A stretch of DNA of 64,000 nt from Flavobacteriaceae bacterium. Its GTDB lineage: Bacteria > Bacteroidota > Bacteroidia > Flavobacteriales > Flavobacteriaceae. Numbering within the stretch: position 1 is the stretch's first letter; each line of letters begins with the position of its first letter. Where the stretch lies: assembly GCA_017852395.1 (NCBI GenBank), contig JAFMLE010000008.1, positions 1 through 64,000 on the forward strand, written 5' to 3'. The position numbers and the translations under genes were made by a program. Below the pieces are notes generated by a model, which ran no database searches, had not been told where the DNA came from, and saw nothing but the letters and a program-made list of their open reading frames with translations. Shown here in pieces: positions 53,764 through 62,879 of the stretch.

Positions 53764-55263
53764 TTATTTCCAAACCCGTTCTATTTGCTTTTGATGGCCT
53801 GCACTAATATTTTTTAGGAGCAATTGATTAAATGGCTGTGTTGGAAAAATCAGATTGGTAGAAACCAAGGCATTTTCATTCACAAAAAGTTCAATGGAAG
53901 ACCGGTCCAAATAAAGCGTTAGATTTTCTACTTTAAGCCTGTTTAGAGGGATTTCTAAGGTCTTTGCAAAAGCGTCACTAAACGAATTATTGCTGGATTG
54001 AGTGCGATCAATTCGGATCGTATTTGCATTTTGAGAAATGGCAAAAAATTCACCAACAGCATTGGACAAGGTCACCGACCAGTCACTATCAGGAGCAACC
54101 TCAAAGTATAGCTGTGTTTCTTGTGCGAGGAGTGTTATGGCCGCTTGCGGATCCAGTTTTTGCTCGGGCCCCAAAATCGTACTCATTTCATCGATTGCTG
54201 CAGAACGCAATTCGAATTTTTGATCAGCTGTTTGGTGCAAGGATAATGTTCGGGGTAAGGTCATTGCGCTTCGCCATGTTTCGGTAGGCACTTGATTGGC
54301 ATAGTCCCAGTTGCTCATCCAACCGATAAGAATTTTTCTTCCATCCGAAGCAGGAATATCACTGTAGGTTACTCCAGCATAGTTATCAGATCCAAAATCC
54401 ATCCAGCGGATTTGTGTGTCTTGAGGGGTAAATGTTTTGCCGTCAAAATCTCCAATAAAATACTGGGTGGCAGAACCCCCATAGGGACCGCCGGGATTGA
54501 TGCTTACCAATAAGACCCATTTTTCATTCCCGTTTTGGTCGTTTAGCGGGAACAGATCTGGACATTCCCAAACACCTCCATGTGCACCAAGGTCTTTGCC
54601 AAAGGTGGTCAGGGCCTCCCATTCGATGAGGTCTGGAGATCGGTAAAAAGCAATATGATCTTGAACCGCCAAAGACATAATCCAATGTTTTGAGGTTTCG
54701 TGCCAAAAGACTTTAGGGTCTCTAAAGTCACGAATCCCAGGGTTTTGAAGTACAGGATTGTTTTGGTATTTTTTCCAGCTTCGACCCCGGTCCAAGCTGT
54801 AGGCCAAACCTTGAGTTTGAAAATCGTTTTTTTGTGCCTGTTCACCGATGGGATCGTGATAGGTATAAAGCGCAACAATGGGTGGGTTTTCTGAGGTTCC
54901 CAAGCCCGAGGTGTTTTTCCAATCTACAACAGCGCTGCCACTAAAAATATACCCCAAACTATCAGGATACAAGGCAATAGGCAGTTGCTCCCAGTGGAGC
55001 AAGTCTTTAGAAACCGCATGTCCCCAGTGCATGGGCCCCCAAACGATATCTTTGGGATAGTGTTGATAAAAAAGATGGTACTCTCCCTCGTAAAAAAACA
55101 TCCCGTTGGGATCGTTCATCCAGTGGGACTCAGGTGTAAAATGATACTGAGGACGATAGCGTTCTTGATATTTTTGTGCGGTTCGTTTCATTTGACAGCC
55201 CGAAAATAAGATTAAAAATAAAGTTGGAAATAAAAATTTTGATTCGTATACTAATTTTTTCAT
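53764..55263 (-). CDS. Fructan hydrolase, GH32, lipoprotein
   Basis: Hydrolyses fructosyl bonds in fructans (levan or inulin) or sucrose. The lipobox SGC (Cys23) anchors it to a membrane. The nucleophile Asp51 is in ESHWMNDPNGMFFYEG, the stabiliser Asp in FRDPKVFWH and the acid/base Glu in WECPDLFPL. The five-bladed propeller is followed by a beta-sandwich from about residue 370. The 499-residue length is normal. Its ATG overlaps the end of the upstream sugar porter (55260-55263), so the two are translated together: a one-two for external cleavage and import of fructose. Confidence 0.95.
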   Translation of the reverse strand: MKKLVYESKFLFPTLFLILFSGCQMKRTAQKYQERYRPQYHFTPESHWMNDPNGMFFYEGEYHLFYQHYPKDIVWGPMHWGHAVSKDLLHWEQLPIALYPDSLGYIFSGSAVVDWKNTSGLGTSENPPIVALYTYHDPIGEQAQKNDFQTQGLAYSLDRGRSWKKYQNNPVLQNPGIRDFRDPKVFWHETSKHWIMSLAVQDHIAFYRSPDLIEWEALTTFGKDLGAHGGVWECPDLFPLNDQNGNEKWVLLVSINPGGPYGGSATQYFIGDFDGKTFTPQDTQIRWMDFGSDNYAGVTYSDIPASDGRKILIGWMSNWDYANQVPTETWRSAMTLPRTLSLHQTADQKFELRSAAIDEMSTILGPEQKLDPQAAITLLAQETQLYFEVAPDSDWSVTLSNAVGEFFAISQNANTIRIDRTQSSNNSFSDAFAKTLEIPLNRLKVENLTLYLDRSSIELFVNENALVSTNLIFPTQPFNQLLLKNISAGHQKQIERVWK

Positions 55264-56564
55264 CGTTCCAAAAATTCACTGAGTTTATCTAGTGGCACTC
55301 CCTTCGTTTCGGGCATCATAAACCACACAAAGAGGAGTTGAAGAACCATCATAAAAGCAAAGAAAATAAAAACAATTCCAGGATTTTCAAAAGCGCTTAA
55401 AGCCATGGGCATAAACAGGGTAATCAGTGCGGCCAACACCCAATGTACCGAAGAGCCAAAGGCTTGTCCTTGAGCACGGAGGTGGTCCGGAAAAATTTCT
55501 GATATAAAAACCCAAATGACGGCACCTTGTCCAATGGCATGAGATGCGATAAACAAAAATAAGAACATAGGCACCAGTATCCCTTCCCATTCTTGAAGAA
55601 AAGCAATACCAACCAAGGTTAGTGAAATTATATACCCATATGACCCGATATGCAATAACGTTTTTCGACCTAGTCGATCGATAAGATAAAGCCCCAGGAG
55701 TGTAAAAATCAAATTGGTGATTCCAATGCCAACACTACTCAATAAGGCCGAACTTGCCCCTAGACCCGCAGACTCAAAAATACGAGGGGCGTAATACAAA
55801 AACGCATTGATACCCGAAAGTTGATTGAAAAACGCGACTAAAAAAGCGAGTACTATCGGAAAACGATGCTTTTTTTGAAATAACTTTTCGGACACACCTG
55901 CAGTGCTTTTTGCATCCAACTCTTGCGTATCTTCTTTGATGCCGAGTTGTTCAAAAACAGCATGAGCCGATTGAACATCCCCGTTGTTTATAAGCAACCA
56001 CCGTGGGCTTTTAGGCAAGGTCAATACTCCTAAACAATACAGCAGCGCTGGAAATGCTTCGATGCCTACCATCCAGCGCCAAGGTGATGCCCCAAAATCG
56101 CTCAAAAGATAATTAGACAAAAAAGCAACCAAAATTCCAAAAACAATATTGAATTGATACAAGGCAACCAAACGACCCCGTTGATCTGCTGGCGAAACTT
56201 CAGCAATATAGGTTGGAGCGGCAATCGTAGAGGCCCCAACGCCCAATCCTCCAATAAACCTGAAGAAAGAAAAAAGATACGGACCCGTTGCAAGCCCTGA
56301 TCCCAATGCTGAGATAAAATATAAAACACCGATACCGATCAGTGTGTTTTTTCGCCCAAAATAATCGGTCGGAAAACCACCAAATATGGCCCCAATGACT
56401 GTACCCCAAAGGGCCATTGCCATAATAAAAGTGCCATGAAAAAGGTCTGACATACCCCAAAGGGCCTGAAGCTGTTGGTCTGCACCAGAAATGACAACGG
56501 TGTCAAATCCAAACAAAAATCCTGCAAGTGCAGCGATGATTGCTATCCTGTATAGTTTATTCAT
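55260..56564 (-). CDS. MFS sugar porter (fructose-type)
   Basis: Twelve-helix sugar:proton symporter, 434 residues. Sugar-porter signatures: ALAGFLFGFDTVVISGADQQ near 12-31, DYFGRKNTLIG between helices 2 and 3, VSPADQRGRLVALYQ between 4 and 5 (PESPRxL-like PKSPRWLL near 195), QLSGINAFLYYAP in helix 7, and PETKGVPLDKL at the end. It is first in an operon with the GH32 enzyme, so fructose is the likely substrate. TATATTTG lies 22 bases upstream. There is no SusC/SusD pair or fructokinase next to it. Confidence 0.93.
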   Translation of the reverse strand: MNKLYRIAIIAALAGFLFGFDTVVISGADQQLQALWGMSDLFHGTFIMAMALWGTVIGAIFGGFPTDYFGRKNTLIGIGVLYFISALGSGLATGPYLFSFFRFIGGLGVGASTIAAPTYIAEVSPADQRGRLVALYQFNIVFGILVAFLSNYLLSDFGASPWRWMVGIEAFPALLYCLGVLTLPKSPRWLLINNGDVQSAHAVFEQLGIKEDTQELDAKSTAGVSEKLFQKKHRFPIVLAFLVAFFNQLSGINAFLYYAPRIFESAGLGASSALLSSVGIGITNLIFTLLGLYLIDRLGRKTLLHIGSYGYIISLTLVGIAFLQEWEGILVPMFLFLFIASHAIGQGAVIWVFISEIFPDHLRAQGQAFGSSVHWVLAALITLFMPMALSAFENPGIVFIFFAFMMVLQLLFVWFMMPETKGVPLDKLSEFLER

Positions 56565-56645: not shown

Positions 56646-56939
56646 TTAACCCAATAGCGATTGAACTTTCATTGCCAGCCCCATATCGCCTCCAATTTTT
56701 ACTTGTCCTCCCATAACAGCCATCATAGGATTAAGCGCACCGTCTCGCAATTTTTCTAATACCTCACGACTTACCGTTATGGTGCAATCTGCTTCTTGAT
56801 CTTCTTGAGTCGTTATGTTGTGATCGCCGCTACCATCAATGAATACAATGGTTTCGTCAACAACAAATTTGAGTGTACCTCCAAGTGCGGAAGCCGCATC
56901 AGCCCGTTTTTTGAACTGTTCAAATACTTCGTTTGCCAT
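56646..56939 (-). CDS. SCP2 sterol-binding domain protein
   Basis: Small lipid-carrier-like protein of 97 residues with a single SCP2 domain (FVVDETIVFIDGSGD, ADCTITVSREVLEKLRDG, MMAVMGGQVKIGGDMGLAMK). Such domains bind fatty acyl-CoAs or sterols. It is divergent from the beta-oxidation genes, with a shared regulatory region, and likely helps with acyl-CoA handling. The fine role is unknown. Confidence 0.9.
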   Translation of the reverse strand: MANEVFEQFKKRADAASALGGTLKFVVDETIVFIDGSGDHNITTQEDQEADCTITVSREVLEKLRDGALNPMMAVMGGQVKIGGDMGLAMKVQSLLG

Positions 56940-56958
56940 GTTTATTTTTTTTCAAATT

Positions 56959-56966
56959 CAAAAGTA
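56959..56966 (-). promoter_or_regulatory. Probable -7 promoter element of the SCP2 gene
   Basis: TACTTTTG on the minus strand, 19 bases before the ATG. The large inverted repeat starts three bases upstream of it. Confidence 0.5.
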
Positions 56967-56968
56967 AT

Positions 56969-56995
56969 AAAAAAATGACATAGCGTCATTTTTTT
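56969..56995. promoter_or_regulatory. Candidate operator of the beta-oxidation locus
   Basis: Perfect 11-base inverted repeat AAAAAAATGAC with GTCATTTTTTT around ATAGC. It lies between two divergent start codons and covers the -33 region of both promoter candidates, so it is more likely an operator than a terminator. The ATGA...TCAT core resembles FadR sites of TetR type, and a TetR gene closes the operon. Confidence 0.6.
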
Positions 56996-56998
56996 TAA

Positions 56999-57006
56999 TA
57001 CATTCG
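56999..57006 (+). promoter_or_regulatory. Probable -7 promoter element of the fadN-like operon
   Basis: TACATTCG, one mismatch from TAnnTTTG, 22 bases before the ATG, directly after the inverted repeat. Confidence 0.4.
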
Positions 57007-57027
57007 TATTTTAAAGTACAAATAACT

Positions 57028-59421
57028 ATGAGTTACCGCATAAAAAAAGTCGCTGTTTTGGGTTCAGGAGTCATGGGTACTGGCATCGCTTGCCACCTTG
57101 CCAACGTGGGTATGGAGGTGTTGATGCTCGATATTCTTCCCCAAAATTCTGACAATCCCAAAGGTTCACAACGCAATGCTGTTGCTGCCGCCGCGCTAAC
57201 GGCCGCCCTAAAAGCGAAACCAGCACCTTTGTATGACAAAGCTTTTGCGCAAAGAATAACGATAGGAAATCTAGAAGATGATTTAGAAAAAATCAGCGAT
57301 TATGATTGGATTATTGAAGTCGTTGTCGAACGCTTGGACATCAAGCAACAGCTTTTTGAAAAGGTTGCCAAATTTCGCACACCCGGTACACTAGTTACTT
57401 CCAATACATCCAGTATCCCTATTCATTTACTTGCAGAGGGTAGAGATGCCGAATTCAAACAGCATTTTTGTGGGACACATTTTTTCAATCCCCCCCGCTA
57501 TCTTCGGCTGTTAGAAATTATTCCTATTGCAGAAACCGACCCCAAACTGGTTGATTTTTTCATGAAGTTTGGTGACACGCATCTAGGCAAACAAACCGTT
57601 TTGTGCAAAGATACACCAGCCTTTATTGCCAATAGAATTGGTGTAATGTCTGGTGCCAAAATCACCATGCTCACCCAACAACTCAATATGCGTATCGAAG
57701 AAGTCGATGCACTGACTGGCAATCTAATCGGTCGCCCCAATACGGCAAGCTATAAACTGCAAGATCTTGTCGGTATTGATACGGGTGAAAAGGTGACCAA
57801 ATTTGTACAACAGGCCGTAAAAAATGACCCCTTTTTTGAGCAACTTAATACCGCTGCCCCGCTAAAGTTTATGGAGTTTTTGCTCGAAAATAAGTTCTAT
57901 GGTAACAAATCTGGAAAAGGTTTTTATGAACGCACCTCACAAAAAGATGAAAATGGTCGCACGATATACAAAGCCCTCAACTTACAATCCCTAACCTACG
58001 AAATGGCCATCAAACCCAAATTGGATCTCGTAAAATCTGCTAAGGGTATAGAGCTGATGGGTAAAAGATTACAACATCTTATTGATGGCGCAACGCGCGA
58101 GCATCAATTTATGAAAGCCTATTTTGGAGCGTTGTTATCCTATACCGCACATCGGGTTCCAGAAATTGCCGACGAATATTTTCAGATCGATGATGCCATG
58201 CGTGCAGGCTATGTTTGGGATCATGGTCCCTTCGAATATTGGGATTTAATCGGTTTTGAAAACGGAATTGCACTCATCGAGTCCCAAAACGAAACCCTGC
58301 CCCAATGGATCTCCAAGCTACAAGCCTCTGGTTTTACCTCCTTTTACAAATACGAAGCAGGCACCAAAAAATATTTTAATCTCAAAACACAATCCTATCA
58401 AGCCGTTCCGAGTGCAGCAGAATATATCATCTTAGATAGCTATCGTCAAAACACCCCCATACTCAAAAACAGTGAGTGCACCCTTCATGATATTGGTGAT
58501 GGGGTTATGTGTCTCGAATTTACCTCCAAAAGCAACGCCATCGGGGAAGGAATTGGTCGTGCTATGGTCGAGGCCATTGATCGTGCAGAAAGTGAAAATT
58601 GGAATGGGATCGTCATCGGAAATAACGCCCCTCAATTTTCGGTCGGGGCCAATTTGATGAATGTTGGCATGCTGGCCATGCAAAAGCAGTACGATCAACT
58701 CAACGAAATGGTAAAAGGTTTCCAAAACATCAATATGCGCATTAGAACCTCAAAAATACCGGTGGTTATAGCTACACAAGGCTATGTTTTTGGTGGAGGT
58801 TGTGAAATTGCAATGCATTGTGATGCTGGGGTTTATGCCGCAGAATCCTACATTGGCCTAGTCGAAGTCGGTGTTGGACTATTGCCTGGTGGAGGGGGTA
58901 CCAAAGAATTTGCTCTAAGAGCTTCGGATCTGTTTTTTGAAGGTGATGTTCAAATCCCAACCCTGATCGATCATTTCAAAACCATTGCCACTGCAACAGT
59001 AGCTACTTCAGCTTATGAAGCATTTAATTTACATTATTTGCAAAAGGGCCGTGATTTTATATGCTATAACACCCCTCGAAATATCGGTATGGCCAAAGAA
59101 AAAGTATTGCAACTGGCACCAAATTATGTCCCACCCAGCCCTAGAAATGACATTCAAGTATTGGGGCGCGGTGGATTGAGCGTGCTGTATTCTGCAATCA
59201 ATGAATTTCGATTGGGGGAGTACATGTCTGACTATGACGTAGAAATCGCAAGAAAAATCGCGTATGTCCTTTGTGGAGGCGATCTTACAAGCAGCCAGCA
59301 AGTCAGCGAGCAATATCTCCTAGATATTGAACGCGAGGGCTTTATGAGTTTGCTTGGAAATCAAAAAACCCTTGATCGGATTCAATATCTATTGATGAAT
59401 AACAAACCGCTAAGAAACTAA
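57028..59421 (+). CDS. 3-hydroxyacyl-CoA dehydrogenase / enoyl-CoA hydratase (FadN-like)
   Basis: Two steps of fatty-acid beta-oxidation in one chain of 797 residues. The N-terminal NAD domain (AVLGSGVMGTGIACHLANVG, about 9-28) and the dehydrogenase C-domain come first. The enoyl-CoA hydratase/isomerase domain (about 490-720) has QFSVGANLMNVGML, GYVFGGGCEIAMHCD and LVEVGVGLLPGGGGTKE. This order is opposite to that of FadB/FadJ and matches FadN (YusL) of Bacillus. The catalytic His is expected in FCGTHFFNPPRYL. It is first in an operon with thiolase and a TetR regulator. Confidence 0.94.
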   Translation: MSYRIKKVAVLGSGVMGTGIACHLANVGMEVLMLDILPQNSDNPKGSQRNAVAAAALTAALKAKPAPLYDKAFAQRITIGNLEDDLEKISDYDWIIEVVVERLDIKQQLFEKVAKFRTPGTLVTSNTSSIPIHLLAEGRDAEFKQHFCGTHFFNPPRYLRLLEIIPIAETDPKLVDFFMKFGDTHLGKQTVLCKDTPAFIANRIGVMSGAKITMLTQQLNMRIEEVDALTGNLIGRPNTASYKLQDLVGIDTGEKVTKFVQQAVKNDPFFEQLNTAAPLKFMEFLLENKFYGNKSGKGFYERTSQKDENGRTIYKALNLQSLTYEMAIKPKLDLVKSAKGIELMGKRLQHLIDGATREHQFMKAYFGALLSYTAHRVPEIADEYFQIDDAMRAGYVWDHGPFEYWDLIGFENGIALIESQNETLPQWISKLQASGFTSFYKYEAGTKKYFNLKTQSYQAVPSAAEYIILDSYRQNTPILKNSECTLHDIGDGVMCLEFTSKSNAIGEGIGRAMVEAIDRAESENWNGIVIGNNAPQFSVGANLMNVGMLAMQKQYDQLNEMVKGFQNINMRIRTSKIPVVIATQGYVFGGGCEIAMHCDAGVYAAESYIGLVEVGVGLLPGGGGTKEFALRASDLFFEGDVQIPTLIDHFKTIATATVATSAYEAFNLHYLQKGRDFICYNTPRNIGMAKEKVLQLAPNYVPPSPRNDIQVLGRGGLSVLYSAINEFRLGEYMSDYDVEIARKIAYVLCGGDLTSSQQVSEQYLLDIEREGFMSLLGNQKTLDRIQYLLMNNKPLRN

Positions 59422-59425
59422 AACG

Positions 59426-60595
59426 ATGGATGCATATATTATAAAAGGATACCGCTCAGCGGTGGGTAAAGCTAAAAAAGGAGGCTTCAAAAATTACCGT
59501 TCCGATGACCTTGCCGTAGATGTTATTAGGCACCTTATGACTACTGTGCCTCAACTAGATCCCAAGCTGGTGGATGATGTTATCGTGGGCTGTGCCAATC
59601 CAGAAGGCGAACAAGGCCTTCAAGTAGGGCGGCTTATTGCCGCAAGAGCATTAGGAAAAGAAGTCCCTGGGATCACCATAAACCGTTATTGTGCTTCTGG
59701 ACTAGAAGCCATTGCTTTAGCAACAGCCAAAATAAAAGCAGGTATGGGCCACGTCTATTTGGCTGGAGGAGCAGAGAGTATGAGTATGATCCCCATGACT
59801 GGATATAAACTGGCTCCCAGCTACAAAGCCAACATCGAAAATCTCAACTACCATGTCAGTATGGGGGCTACTGCTGAAGCCGTGGCATCCAAATACAACA
59901 TCACACGAGACGCAGCTGACGCATTTTCGGTGCGCTCACATCAAAGAGCCGCAGCAGCCATTGACGCTGGATATTTTAAGGACGAAATCGTTCCTGTTAC
60001 TATAGAAGAAGTTTTTGTAGAAAATAATCAAAGAAAAACCCACACCCATACAGTCCAAGTAGATGAAGGAGTTCGTAGAGACACCACCATCGAAGGACTG
60101 GGTCAATTGCGCGCTGCATTCAAAAAAGACGGTGTAGTTACTGCGGGCAATGCGTCACAAACTTCTGACGGCGCCGCATTTACCCTAGTCGTCAGTGAAG
60201 AGATGGTTAAAACATTAGGGCTTGAGCCTATCGGTCGATTGGTAGGATGTGCAGTGGGGGGAGTAGACCCATTATATATGGGGATCGGTCCATGTGTAGC
60301 CATACCAAAGGTCCTCAAACAAACCGGCCTTTCACTCAAAGACATTGAGCAAACAGAGTTAAATGAAGCATTTGCCGCACAGGCACTCGCCGTAATTCAA
60401 GAAGCAGGATTGGACCCCGAAACCGTCAATGTCAATGGAGGTGCCATTGCCCTTGGACACCCTCTTGGGTGTACCGGAGCAAAATTGAGCATTCAGCTGT
60501 TAAATGAAATGAAAAGACGTCAACAAAAGTATGGCATGGTCACTGCCTGTGTCGGAGGAGGACAAGGCATAGCAGGTGTTATCGAACGGTTCTAA
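59426..60595 (+). CDS. fadA: Acetyl-CoA acyltransferase (thiolase)
   Basis: Last step of the beta-oxidation cycle: splits 3-ketoacyl-CoA with CoA. Of 389 residues. The nucleophile Cys89 is in INRYCASGLEAIALA, and the second Cys and His are in GHPLGCTGAKLSIQ and ACVGGGQGIAG. The NEAFAAQALAV stretch is also present. It lies four bases after the FadN-like gene and six bases before the TetR gene, so all three are one message. Confidence 0.95.
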   Translation: MDAYIIKGYRSAVGKAKKGGFKNYRSDDLAVDVIRHLMTTVPQLDPKLVDDVIVGCANPEGEQGLQVGRLIAARALGKEVPGITINRYCASGLEAIALATAKIKAGMGHVYLAGGAESMSMIPMTGYKLAPSYKANIENLNYHVSMGATAEAVASKYNITRDAADAFSVRSHQRAAAAIDAGYFKDEIVPVTIEEVFVENNQRKTHTHTVQVDEGVRRDTTIEGLGQLRAAFKKDGVVTAGNASQTSDGAAFTLVVSEEMVKTLGLEPIGRLVGCAVGGVDPLYMGIGPCVAIPKVLKQTGLSLKDIEQTELNEAFAAQALAVIQEAGLDPETVNVNGGAIALGHPLGCTGAKLSIQLLNEMKRRQQKYGMVTACVGGGQGIAGVIERF

Positions 60596-60601
60596 AAATT
60601 T

Positions 60602-61186
60602 GTGGGACTACGACAACAAAATAAAGCACGTATTCGAGAGGCATTAGTGCAGCAAGCACTGCTGCTATTTTCTGAACACGGCGTAGAAAAAACAACCGTA
60701 CATGATATTGTTAAAAAAGTAGGAATAGCACGCGGTACTTTTTATAATTATTTTGAAGACATCGATGCAATTTTTCAAGCGGTAGTCCATCAAATGAACC
60801 AACAGATCAAAACCGTTCTTGATACTTCTCGTGCCCATGCAAGCTCGGTTTATGATTATCTGTATTTGAGTTTTAAAGGATATTTTGACTATGTAAGCCA
60901 TGCGGAGGTCAAAAATTTTTTTATTACGAATCAATCCTATGTTCGAAAAAGCACCTATCAAAGTCCCATTTTGTTGGCACTAATCAAAGACCTTAATCGT
61001 GATCTACGCAATCGAAAGGATTTGCCTTCTTTTACCGAAAAACATGAATTCCTATTGTTGAGTATCATGCTCGTGGGTAGCCCTCCAGAGCTGTTTTTGG
61101 CCACCCAACAATCCGCAATGGAATTTTCTAATGATCAATTGGCTGTTTTTCTTGCCAAAACCTTCCATAAGGTTCTACAAGACTGA
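60602..61186 (+). CDS. TetR/AcrR-family regulator, probable fatty-acid regulator
   Basis: Repressor-type regulator of 194 residues. The N-terminal helix-turn-helix is clear: FSEHGVEKTTVHDIVKKVG then IARGTFYNYFEDIDAIFQAV, about residues 20-58. The C-terminal ligand domain is variable. The start is a GTG six bases after the thiolase stop. Its place at the end of the beta-oxidation operon and the inverted repeat ahead of that operon suggest that it senses acyl-CoA and represses the locus, like FadR of Bacillus or Thermus. This is inference. Confidence 0.9.
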   Translation: MGLRQQNKARIREALVQQALLLFSEHGVEKTTVHDIVKKVGIARGTFYNYFEDIDAIFQAVVHQMNQQIKTVLDTSRAHASSVYDYLYLSFKGYFDYVSHAEVKNFFITNQSYVRKSTYQSPILLALIKDLNRDLRNRKDLPSFTEKHEFLLLSIMLVGSPPELFLATQQSAMEFSNDQLAVFLAKTFHKVLQD

Positions 61187-61187
61187 C

Positions 61188-61616
61188 CTATATTTTTTTG
61201 ACCACATAGGTCACGATACCCCAAATTTGTAGTTGTTGATCTTCGGTGACCTTAATCGGTTTGTATTTTGGGTTTTCGGGCATGAGATAGATGCAGTCTT
61301 TTTCGACTTTTAGCCTTTTTACGGTAAACTCACCATCAATAAAACAAACCGCTATTTTGTTGTTCTCAGGCTGTTGGCTTTTGTCAATTACCAAAAGGTC
61401 TCCATCTTCTAGTCCTGCCCCTTGCATCGAGTCTCCAGATACGCGTGCATAGAAGGTAGCTTCTTCATTTTTGACCACTTCTTGGTCGATACTAATGCGC
61501 AGTTCTTTGAAGTCATCTGCAGGAGAAGGAAACCCAGCCGAAATCCCTTCTTGGGCCAGAAAGCGCTCTTTGCCGATGCTGGCATCGGGTTTGTAAAACA
61601 CAATTTTGTCTGCCAT
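61188..61616 (-). CDS. umuD: UmuD-type self-cleaving S24 peptidase
   Basis: Accessory subunit of translesion polymerase V, 142 residues. The self-cleavage site is Ala27-Gly28 (GISAGFPSP). The catalytic Ser63 is in SGDSMQGAGLEDGDLL and Lys100 in GEFTVKRLK. The domain ends with an S24 strand pattern (IWGIVTYVV). It is a single-domain UmuD with no LexA DNA-binding part. It lies three bases downstream of umuC, so the two genes are translated from one message with umuC first. Confidence 0.95.
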   Translation of the reverse strand: MADKIVFYKPDASIGKERFLAQEGISAGFPSPADDFKELRISIDQEVVKNEEATFYARVSGDSMQGAGLEDGDLLVIDKSQQPENNKIAVCFIDGEFTVKRLKVEKDCIYLMPENPKYKPIKVTEDQQLQIWGIVTYVVKKI

Positions 61617-61619
61617 AAA

Positions 61620-62879
61620 TTACTTTACTCGAATTATTTCGGTCAATTCGGTGGTAAAGCGTGGGGACAGGTGATTTTGTTTCATTTTCCAGGTACGTTT
61701 TAGGTCCTGATTGGCAAGTTTCATACGGTTGGGGCCAAAACGTTTATGAATAGTATCTATAGTTTTCATGAGGACATCATGCCGACCAATAGCAGCATCA
61801 AAAAGTGTTAATTGCTGTGTGTCTGCTGGGGTTAGACCAAGTAAAATTACTCCTGCTTTTTTGTACACAATGCCAGATTGATAGAGTGTTTTGAGCCCTG
61901 CCCGAGCAAATTTGCTCAAGGTGATGCTGCTATTGGTCGCATAAGGAAGTCCAACCGTACAACTGTTTTGATAGTAGGTTGCTTCTTTTTTGTGTGGATC
62001 ACTACGTACAAAAACAACAAGGGCATTGCAATGACTGTTTTGCTGGCGTAGCTTTTCGGCACAGCTAGTAGCAAAGGTAGTGACGCGTTCTTCGAGGTCG
62101 TCAAAACGGGTCACAGTCCCTTCAAAACTGCGGGTGGTAGCAATTGATTTTTTGGGGTTTTGTATTTCTTCGAGTTGAATAAAAGGAAGCCCTTCCAAAT
62201 CTTTTTTGAGACGCAGCCCGATGACGCTCATTTGTTTGCGAATCCATTCATCTGGAAGGTGCACAAAGTCCAATGCGGTTCTAATCCCCATGGCTTCGAG
62301 ACGTTTGCGGTGCTGTCGTCCGATACCCCAAACATCACCAATGGTAGTCCACTGAAGGGCTTTGAGGCGTTTTTCTTCACTATCAATAAGGTAAACACCG
62401 TTGGTTCGTTGCGCAAATTTTTTGGCAATACGATTGGCAATTTTTGCTAAAGCTTTGCTGGGGGCGATCCCTACAGAAACGGGGATGCCCGTCCACTGAT
62501 GGACTTGCTGCCGCAGTTTTTGCGCCTCGGACAGGAGGTCTTTGTAGTCAAAACCCTTAAAGCGCAAAAAGGCCTCATCGATACTATAGACCTCTACTTC
62601 GGGAGTGTACCGCTCTAGAATTTTCATTACCCGGCTACTCATATCTCCGTATAAAGGGTAATTGGATGAAAAAACTTTGACACCGTGTTTTTTAAATTCT
62701 TGTTGATACTGAAACGCAGGAGCACCCATAGGAATGCCTAAGGCTTTTGCTTCGTTGCTTCGGGCAATAACACAACCGTCATTGTTGGATAAAATAACGA
62801 CCGGTTTGCCCTCCCATTGTGGTTGAAAAACCCGCTCACAAGAGGCATAAAAATTATTGCAATCGACTAAAGCAAACAT
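61620..62879 (-). CDS. umuC: Y-family DNA polymerase V catalytic subunit
   Basis: Translesion DNA polymerase of 419 residues. Visible: the palm start MFALVDCNNFYASCERVFQP with its metal-binding Asp, SNNDGCVIARSNEAKALGIP, the catalytic acidic pair VEVYSIDEAFLRF, the RIAKKF finger region, and the little-finger domain with IATTRSFEGTVT. It is first in the umuC-umuD pair, the reverse of the E. coli order. No LexA-type box is apparent in the 180-base gap to sucA, and the regulation is unclear. Confidence 0.95.
   Translation of the reverse strand: MFALVDCNNFYASCERVFQPQWEGKPVVILSNNDGCVIARSNEAKALGIPMGAPAFQYQQEFKKHGVKVFSSNYPLYGDMSSRVMKILERYTPEVEVYSIDEAFLRFKGFDYKDLLSEAQKLRQQVHQWTGIPVSVGIAPSKALAKIANRIAKKFAQRTNGVYLIDSEEKRLKALQWTTIGDVWGIGRQHRKRLEAMGIRTALDFVHLPDEWIRKQMSVIGLRLKKDLEGLPFIQLEEIQNPKKSIATTRSFEGTVTRFDDLEERVTTFATSCAEKLRQQNSHCNALVVFVRSDPHKKEATYYQNSCTVGLPYATNSSITLSKFARAGLKTLYQSGIVYKKAGVILLGLTPADTQQLTLFDAAIGRHDVLMKTIDTIHKRFGPNRMKLANQDLKRTWKMKQNHLSPRFTTELTEIIRVK

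Follow-up and report, generated by a model that had tools for sequence, protein, structure and literature searches.

The locus examined here raises the question of what a perfect palindrome does between the divergent starts of SCP2 and fadN, and which protein reads it. From comparison across genomes, we consider it highly probable that the palindrome is the operator of a TetR-family protein, itself the product of the final gene in a fadN-fadA-tetR operon; the reading draws on the dyad itself, its conservation with tetR, a fixed promoter geometry, sites before etfBA, and a lack of the motif at fadN in sister genomes that have no tetR. The window (the whole stretch of DNA analysed, 64,000 nt) holds the following features at this locus:

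56649-56939, minus strand: SCP2 sterol-carrier-domain protein, predicted divergent target gene (Pfam SCP2 1.8e-18, 97 codons searched)
56959-56966, minus strand: -7-like box TACTTTTG of the predicted SCP2 promoter, starting 16 nt from the operator centre
56969-56995, no strand: candidate operator AAAAAAATGAC-ATAGC-GTCATTTTTTT, centre 56982, conserved in relatives
56976-56988: core of the repeat, TGACATAGCGTCA
56999-57006, plus strand: -7-like box TACATTCG of the predicted fadN promoter, starting 17 nt from the operator centre
57028-59421, plus strand: fadN, 3-hydroxyacyl-CoA dehydrogenase/enoyl-CoA hydratase, 797 aa (Pfam 3HCDH_N 2.2e-42, ECH_1 5.7e-18)
59426-60595, plus strand: fadA, acetyl-CoA acyltransferase (thiolase), 389 aa (Pfam Thiolase_N 3.8e-64; above the TIGR01930 cut-off)
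60602-61186, plus strand: tetR, TetR-family repressor (predicted), 194 aa, GTG start, last gene of the predicted operon (Pfam TetR_N 1.2e-12)

An inverted repeat between SCP2 and fadN

The repeat comprises perfect 11-nt arms around a 5-nt spacer and is placed between the SCP2 start (56939, minus strand) and the fadN start (57028, plus strand). Both the repeat with its ATAGC spacer and the TAnnTTTG-like boxes on either side (minus strand 56966-56959, plus strand 56999-57006) are present as the initial annotation described them, as is an operon ending in a TetR gene at 60602; tetR very probably belongs to this operon, because gaps of just 4 nt (fadN to fadA) and 6 nt (fadA to tetR) separate the three genes. 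A Peptidase S24 (UmuD/LexA-like) gene and, after it, a gene that looks UmuC-like by eye occupy 61188-62879 on the minus strand, convergent with tetR; the pair lies near tetR in most related loci. On the far side of SCP2, a sugar transporter adjoins a secreted glycosidase-like ORF (glycosidase-like by eye; 53764-56564, minus strand), and the same pair is found beside SCP2 in the genus sister G001. Elsewhere in the window's genome, a hydratase-like reading frame has one TAA inside the match (G000:C3:98840-99310, locus L038).

Three perfect inverted repeats of this class (arms of at least 11 nt, gaps of at most 10) occur in the window, the one at 56969-56995 among them; 9 of 30 whole-window dinucleotide shuffles held any such repeat, and at most 2. 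When the 88-nt intergenic stretch was shuffled locally, such a repeat arose in 21 of 5000 single-base and 16 of 2000 dinucleotide shuffles. The repeat by itself is only moderately unlikely, since its arms are mostly A/T tract, and it is conservation that provides the strong evidence.

Exact ATGAC-N5-GTCAT is found once in the 1.75-Mb genome sequence of the window's organism, at SCP2/fadN, and once in G001, at the same place with a different spacer. A search of the window's genome with this pattern for sites at further fatty-acid genes, as the initial annotation proposed, returned no second exact copy, and no site precedes etfB in that genome. A core-only search of the window with at most one mismatch gave chance-level matches, and a 2-mismatch search of its genome was uninformative (521 matches versus 431 for the reversed control).

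Conservation of the site in tetR-bearing genomes

With four aligned TetR proteins as the query, GTDB genomes were scanned and 80 loci kept; 57 of these (L091-L147) match TetR at 34-82% identity, most of them carrying fadN-fadA-tetR in a row with SCP2 divergent. G002, the third member of the window's genus, has TetR at 82%, its contig ending inside fadN. The window and the 44 loci containing a fadN start supplied 45 fadN-upstream regions, and TGAC-N5-GTCA lies no more than 130 nt upstream of fadN in 42 of these 45 regions of tetR-bearing loci. The remaining three are Saprospiraceae: in L138 the site stands 149 nt ahead of fadN, in L130 and L136 just ahead of tetR, in each case within 150 nt of one of these genes. 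The consensus core is TGACAC-N-GTGTCA, commonly in the form AAAAAATGACAC-N-GTGTCATTTTTT; the window's copy, TGACATAGCGTCA, deviates from it at one arm position and is a slightly decayed version. Across 34 distinct 37-mers, positions 8-12 from the centre are nearly fixed and drift sets in beyond 13 (positions 3-6 are invariant because the search pattern demands it), and in some rows both arms have changed together at positions 7, 10 and 12. Some of this conservation is shared descent. The initial annotation had made conservation of the repeat in relatives one test of its reading, and dyad, position and promoter geometry are indeed kept in dozens of tetR-bearing genomes.

The motif is missing at fadN where tetR is missing: three sister genomes with a window-type FadN (69-71% identity) and no TetR (G022, G106, G120) have no motif there. 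A single match in G120 (C11:42895), between two ORFs resembling groES and secG by eye, was taken as chance. In a draw of 120 Flavobacteriaceae genomes, TetR (E 1e-10 or better) was found in the window's genome only, apart from a 34% relative that G016 carries. Of the 120, 46 contain the motif; among the motif places listed for this draw, none is near a fadN position by our reading of the lists.

Promoter geometry is conserved with the dyad. In the window, the SCP2-side box agrees with TAnnTTTG at 6 of 6 fixed bases and the fadN-side box at 5 of 6. Requiring 5 or 6 of the 6 fixed bases, a box starts 16-18 nt from the operator centre in 39/42 regions on the fadN side and 41/41 on the SCP2 side; shuffled flanks reach a score of at least 5 at any position in about 31-37%, so the fixed distance is the informative part. 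The Bacteroidota housekeeping promoter box TAnnTTTG is thus found on both sides at a conserved distance, marking two predicted promoters. In Flavobacterium psychrophilum the -7 box TAnnTTTG is reported to lie at -12 to -5 (PMC9723704), a position from which we calculate an operator centre at about -29, placing the operator over the -33 region in each predicted promoter. With boxes 16-18 nt from the centre on both sides, one site could block the fadN operon and divergent SCP2 together.

Copies away from fadN were sought with the stricter pattern RTGACANNNTGTCAY in 25 genomes, all but G000-G002 (the window's genus, G000 being its own genome) having been reached through TetR loci. The pattern matched in 19/25, whereas its reversed control gave none in 21/25 and 1-2 in the other four. 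The zero scores of G000 and G145-G147 reflect sites that deviate from the stricter pattern, and that of G002 the lack of the region; G166 (Formosa) has no match to RTGACANNNTGTCAY. Twelve Flavobacteriaceae genomes have exactly two sites, and in all twelve these are the fadN site and a second about 40 nt before etfB (one etfB start, in L191, is a TTG read by eye), etfBA being the electron acceptor of beta-oxidation. All twelve etfBA sites have a box of score 5-6 on the etf side at 16-17 nt. G154 has a looser site before etfB. No site was found before etfB in G000, G001, G002, G145, G146, G147, G162 or G163, and the etfBA target is hence seen in relatives of the window's genus only. In Saprospiraceae G164, one site precedes etfBA and another separates fadN from an acyl-CoA dehydrogenase gene divergent from it; the Saprospiraceae etfBA site L204:225 has no such box at that distance on its etf side. 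L126-L128 have a comparable layout: the site separates fadN from a 604-aa ORF divergent from it, which Pfam identifies in L126 as an acyl-CoA dehydrogenase, and SCP2 stands beyond this ORF. The best explanation of these sites includes control of etfBA by the same TetR in many related genomes.

Copies at neither etfBA nor fadN number two in G161 and one each in G163, G164 (C25) and G165. Two Saprospiraceae copies (L205:4051, L206:4045) lie near biotin-carboxylase-like genes, after an enoyl-CoA-hydratase-like gene (by eye), and possibly mark further targets.

A MarR site and other readings of the repeat

Ordinary Flavobacteriaceae carry a different arrangement. In 26 loci (L044-L069), whose fadN is 47-48% identical, TATGC-NN-GCATA lies upstream of a MarR-like gene preceding fadN in 25 of the 26 (MarR assigned by Pfam on one locus), with a perfect -7 box 17-18 nt away in 23 of these 25; a roughly 600-aa ORF beginning like acd of the window's genome (itself assigned by Pfam) follows fadA in 6/6 loci checked. 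Our analysis labels TATGC-NN-GCATA at marR-fadN-fadA and marR-acd a second beta-oxidation regulon, of which the literature searches found no account. The enzymes and the spacing from operator to box are those of the TetR loci; the protein family and the operator differ, and in the window's genome MarR stands with acd only. There, TATGCGCGCATA precedes marR-acd (L238:5119), and the pair comes after an AMP-binding (acyl-CoA synthetase-like) gene. Loss of MarR from tetR-bearing genomes was considered and rejected, MarR being kept in 16 of the 23 searched, the window's included. Because MarR persists there only beside acd, the beta-oxidation regulon of the window's genome looks divided between two repressors.

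MarR proteins also bind dyads, and with a beta-oxidation MarR retained in the window's genome, the palindrome might bind that protein, or a global regulator, with the adjacent tetR a coincidence. We regard this as improbable: the conserved MarR site is a different one, TATGC-NN-GCATA, present in 9/9 marR neighbourhoods fetched and in 0/45 fadN-upstream regions of tetR loci, and the TGACAC site follows the presence of tetR, even in Saprospiraceae L130 and L136, where it precedes tetR itself. A dyad with flanking A and T runs also resembles an intrinsic terminator, yet a bidirectional terminator or 5'-UTR hairpin is a highly improbable reading, the first of which the initial annotation had likewise thought unlikely. 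Both neighbouring genes begin at the repeat and none ends there, and since the repeat is flanked on each side by a -7-like box that stands clear of it at a fixed distance, it is predicted to be untranscribed from either promoter; both RNA readings were rejected on this geometry. That A/T-rich intergenic sequence simply produced the dyad by chance, a reading for which the mostly homopolymeric arms and the 16 in 2000 local dinucleotide shuffles with an equally good repeat would speak, is barely credible given a G/C-bearing core kept across dozens of genomes while spacers and flanks diverge.

The TetR protein, its proposed mechanism and lineage history

The preferred reader of the palindrome, the TetR protein, has the family's N-terminal helix-turn-helix (PF00440, 47.8 bits against a cut-off of 24) and a predicted all-helical TetR fold over the whole chain (AlphaFold2 mean pLDDT 90.2; best VIA Z 18.3 over 188 residues). 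In the recognition helix, the stretch from R44 to Y50 (RGTFYNY) is unchanged across 40 TetR proteins. Its PDB neighbours are Rv0078, EthR, EthR2, Bacillus FadR, FasR, SaFadR and DesT (Z 16-18, 13-19% identity), of which FadR, SaFadR, FasR and DesT are fatty-acid regulators; the match is unspecific in that EthR, EthR2 and Rv0078 score equally high, so these modelled likenesses are compatible with acyl-CoA binding without proving it. More distant TetR relatives (34-35%) occur in G016 (L079:5005-5601), next to an ORF resembling aldehyde dehydrogenase, and in Formosa loci L140, L142 and L143; they were rejected as orthologues, given this neighbour in G016 and the lack of any TGACA-N3-TGTCA in loci L140 and L142-L144.

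Binding of TetR to the site and repression from it, autoregulation included, are strongly inferred from the comparative evidence. A TetR dimer would bind the TGAC/GTCA half-sites, whose centre is some 29 nt ahead of each predicted transcription start, and so block RNA polymerase at the fadN-fadA-tetR and divergent SCP2 promoters simultaneously; because tetR lies in the operon, TetR would also limit its own synthesis. Accumulated acyl-CoA, which pathway and fold make a fairly probable inducing ligand, would bind the helical ligand domain and release the repressor, whereby beta-oxidation would be induced.

The initial annotation likened this layout to FadR control of fadN-fadA in Bacillus. In what we take to be the Bacillus FadR box, TGAATGAnTAnTCATTCA, ATGA and TCAT stand 4 nt apart, against 7 in the window's repeat. 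The likeness holds in kind: a gene for a TetR-fold repressor (here predicted) lies inside the regulated fad operon, fadN, fadA and etfBA are targets (here predicted from operator sites, etfBA in relatives only), and the modelled structure superposes on 3whb with Z 17.5. It fails for the regulator itself, which has 15% identity to Bacillus FadR in the structural alignment and was rejected as a member of its equivalog family (NF053878, 29.2 bits against the NCBIfam cut-off of 200). The proposed mechanism is thus ordinary, in the manner of Bacillus FadR; the regulator is not FadR. Bacillus subtilis FadR, a TetR-family protein inhibited by long-chain acyl-CoA, acts on the operons fadN-fadA-fadE and lcfA-fadR-fadB-etfB-etfA among others (PMC4525379). 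SbtR of Thermus thermophilus (TTHA0167), also of the TetR family, shares the TGAC/GTCA half-sites in its consensus, TGACYrnnyRGTCA, with a spacing one base longer (PMC7022988; compared by operator only). FadRSa of Sulfolobus acidocaldarius is likewise a TetR-family protein with few genomic sites, described in PMC6449355 as an acyl-CoA-responsive repressor of beta-oxidation genes (PDB 6el2, 6en8; 19% identity, Z 16.6 in structural alignment); unlike the window's TetR, it is archaeal. Neither the motif nor a fad regulon under TetR or MarR in flavobacteria was described in the literature searched.

In a FadN tree of 76 rows, a branch marked 100* has 27 ordinary Flavobacteriaceae on one side and, on the other, the three TetR-less sisters, six Saprospiraceae and the tetR-type rows; given the starred branches, no fewer than two changes are needed to account for those sisters (quick method, unrooted). 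Two of the three, G022 and G106, have TATGC-NN-GCATA directly before fadN. The tree fits a transferred fadN-fadA-tetR module from which tetR was later lost at least twice, with a MarR site at fadN in 2/3 sisters. It is an evenly balanced proposition that a MarR regulon (marR-fadN-fadA-acd) was split in this way, a diverged, Saprospiraceae-closer fadN-fadA bringing its own TetR and operator, MarR keeping acd, and fadN promoters that lost TetR carrying the MarR site at nearly the same distance. If true, the first step and the later steps of one beta-oxidation cycle would answer to two sensors.

Flavobacteriaceae rank among the major consumers of organic matter from algae in the sea, and the literature searched says little on how they regulate fat breakdown. 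The case gives a testable regulator, operator and set of targets. It also offers a natural series of genomes whose operator at a single core metabolic promoter tracks whichever repressor is present, and would show how a lineage can exchange one core-pathway regulator for another.
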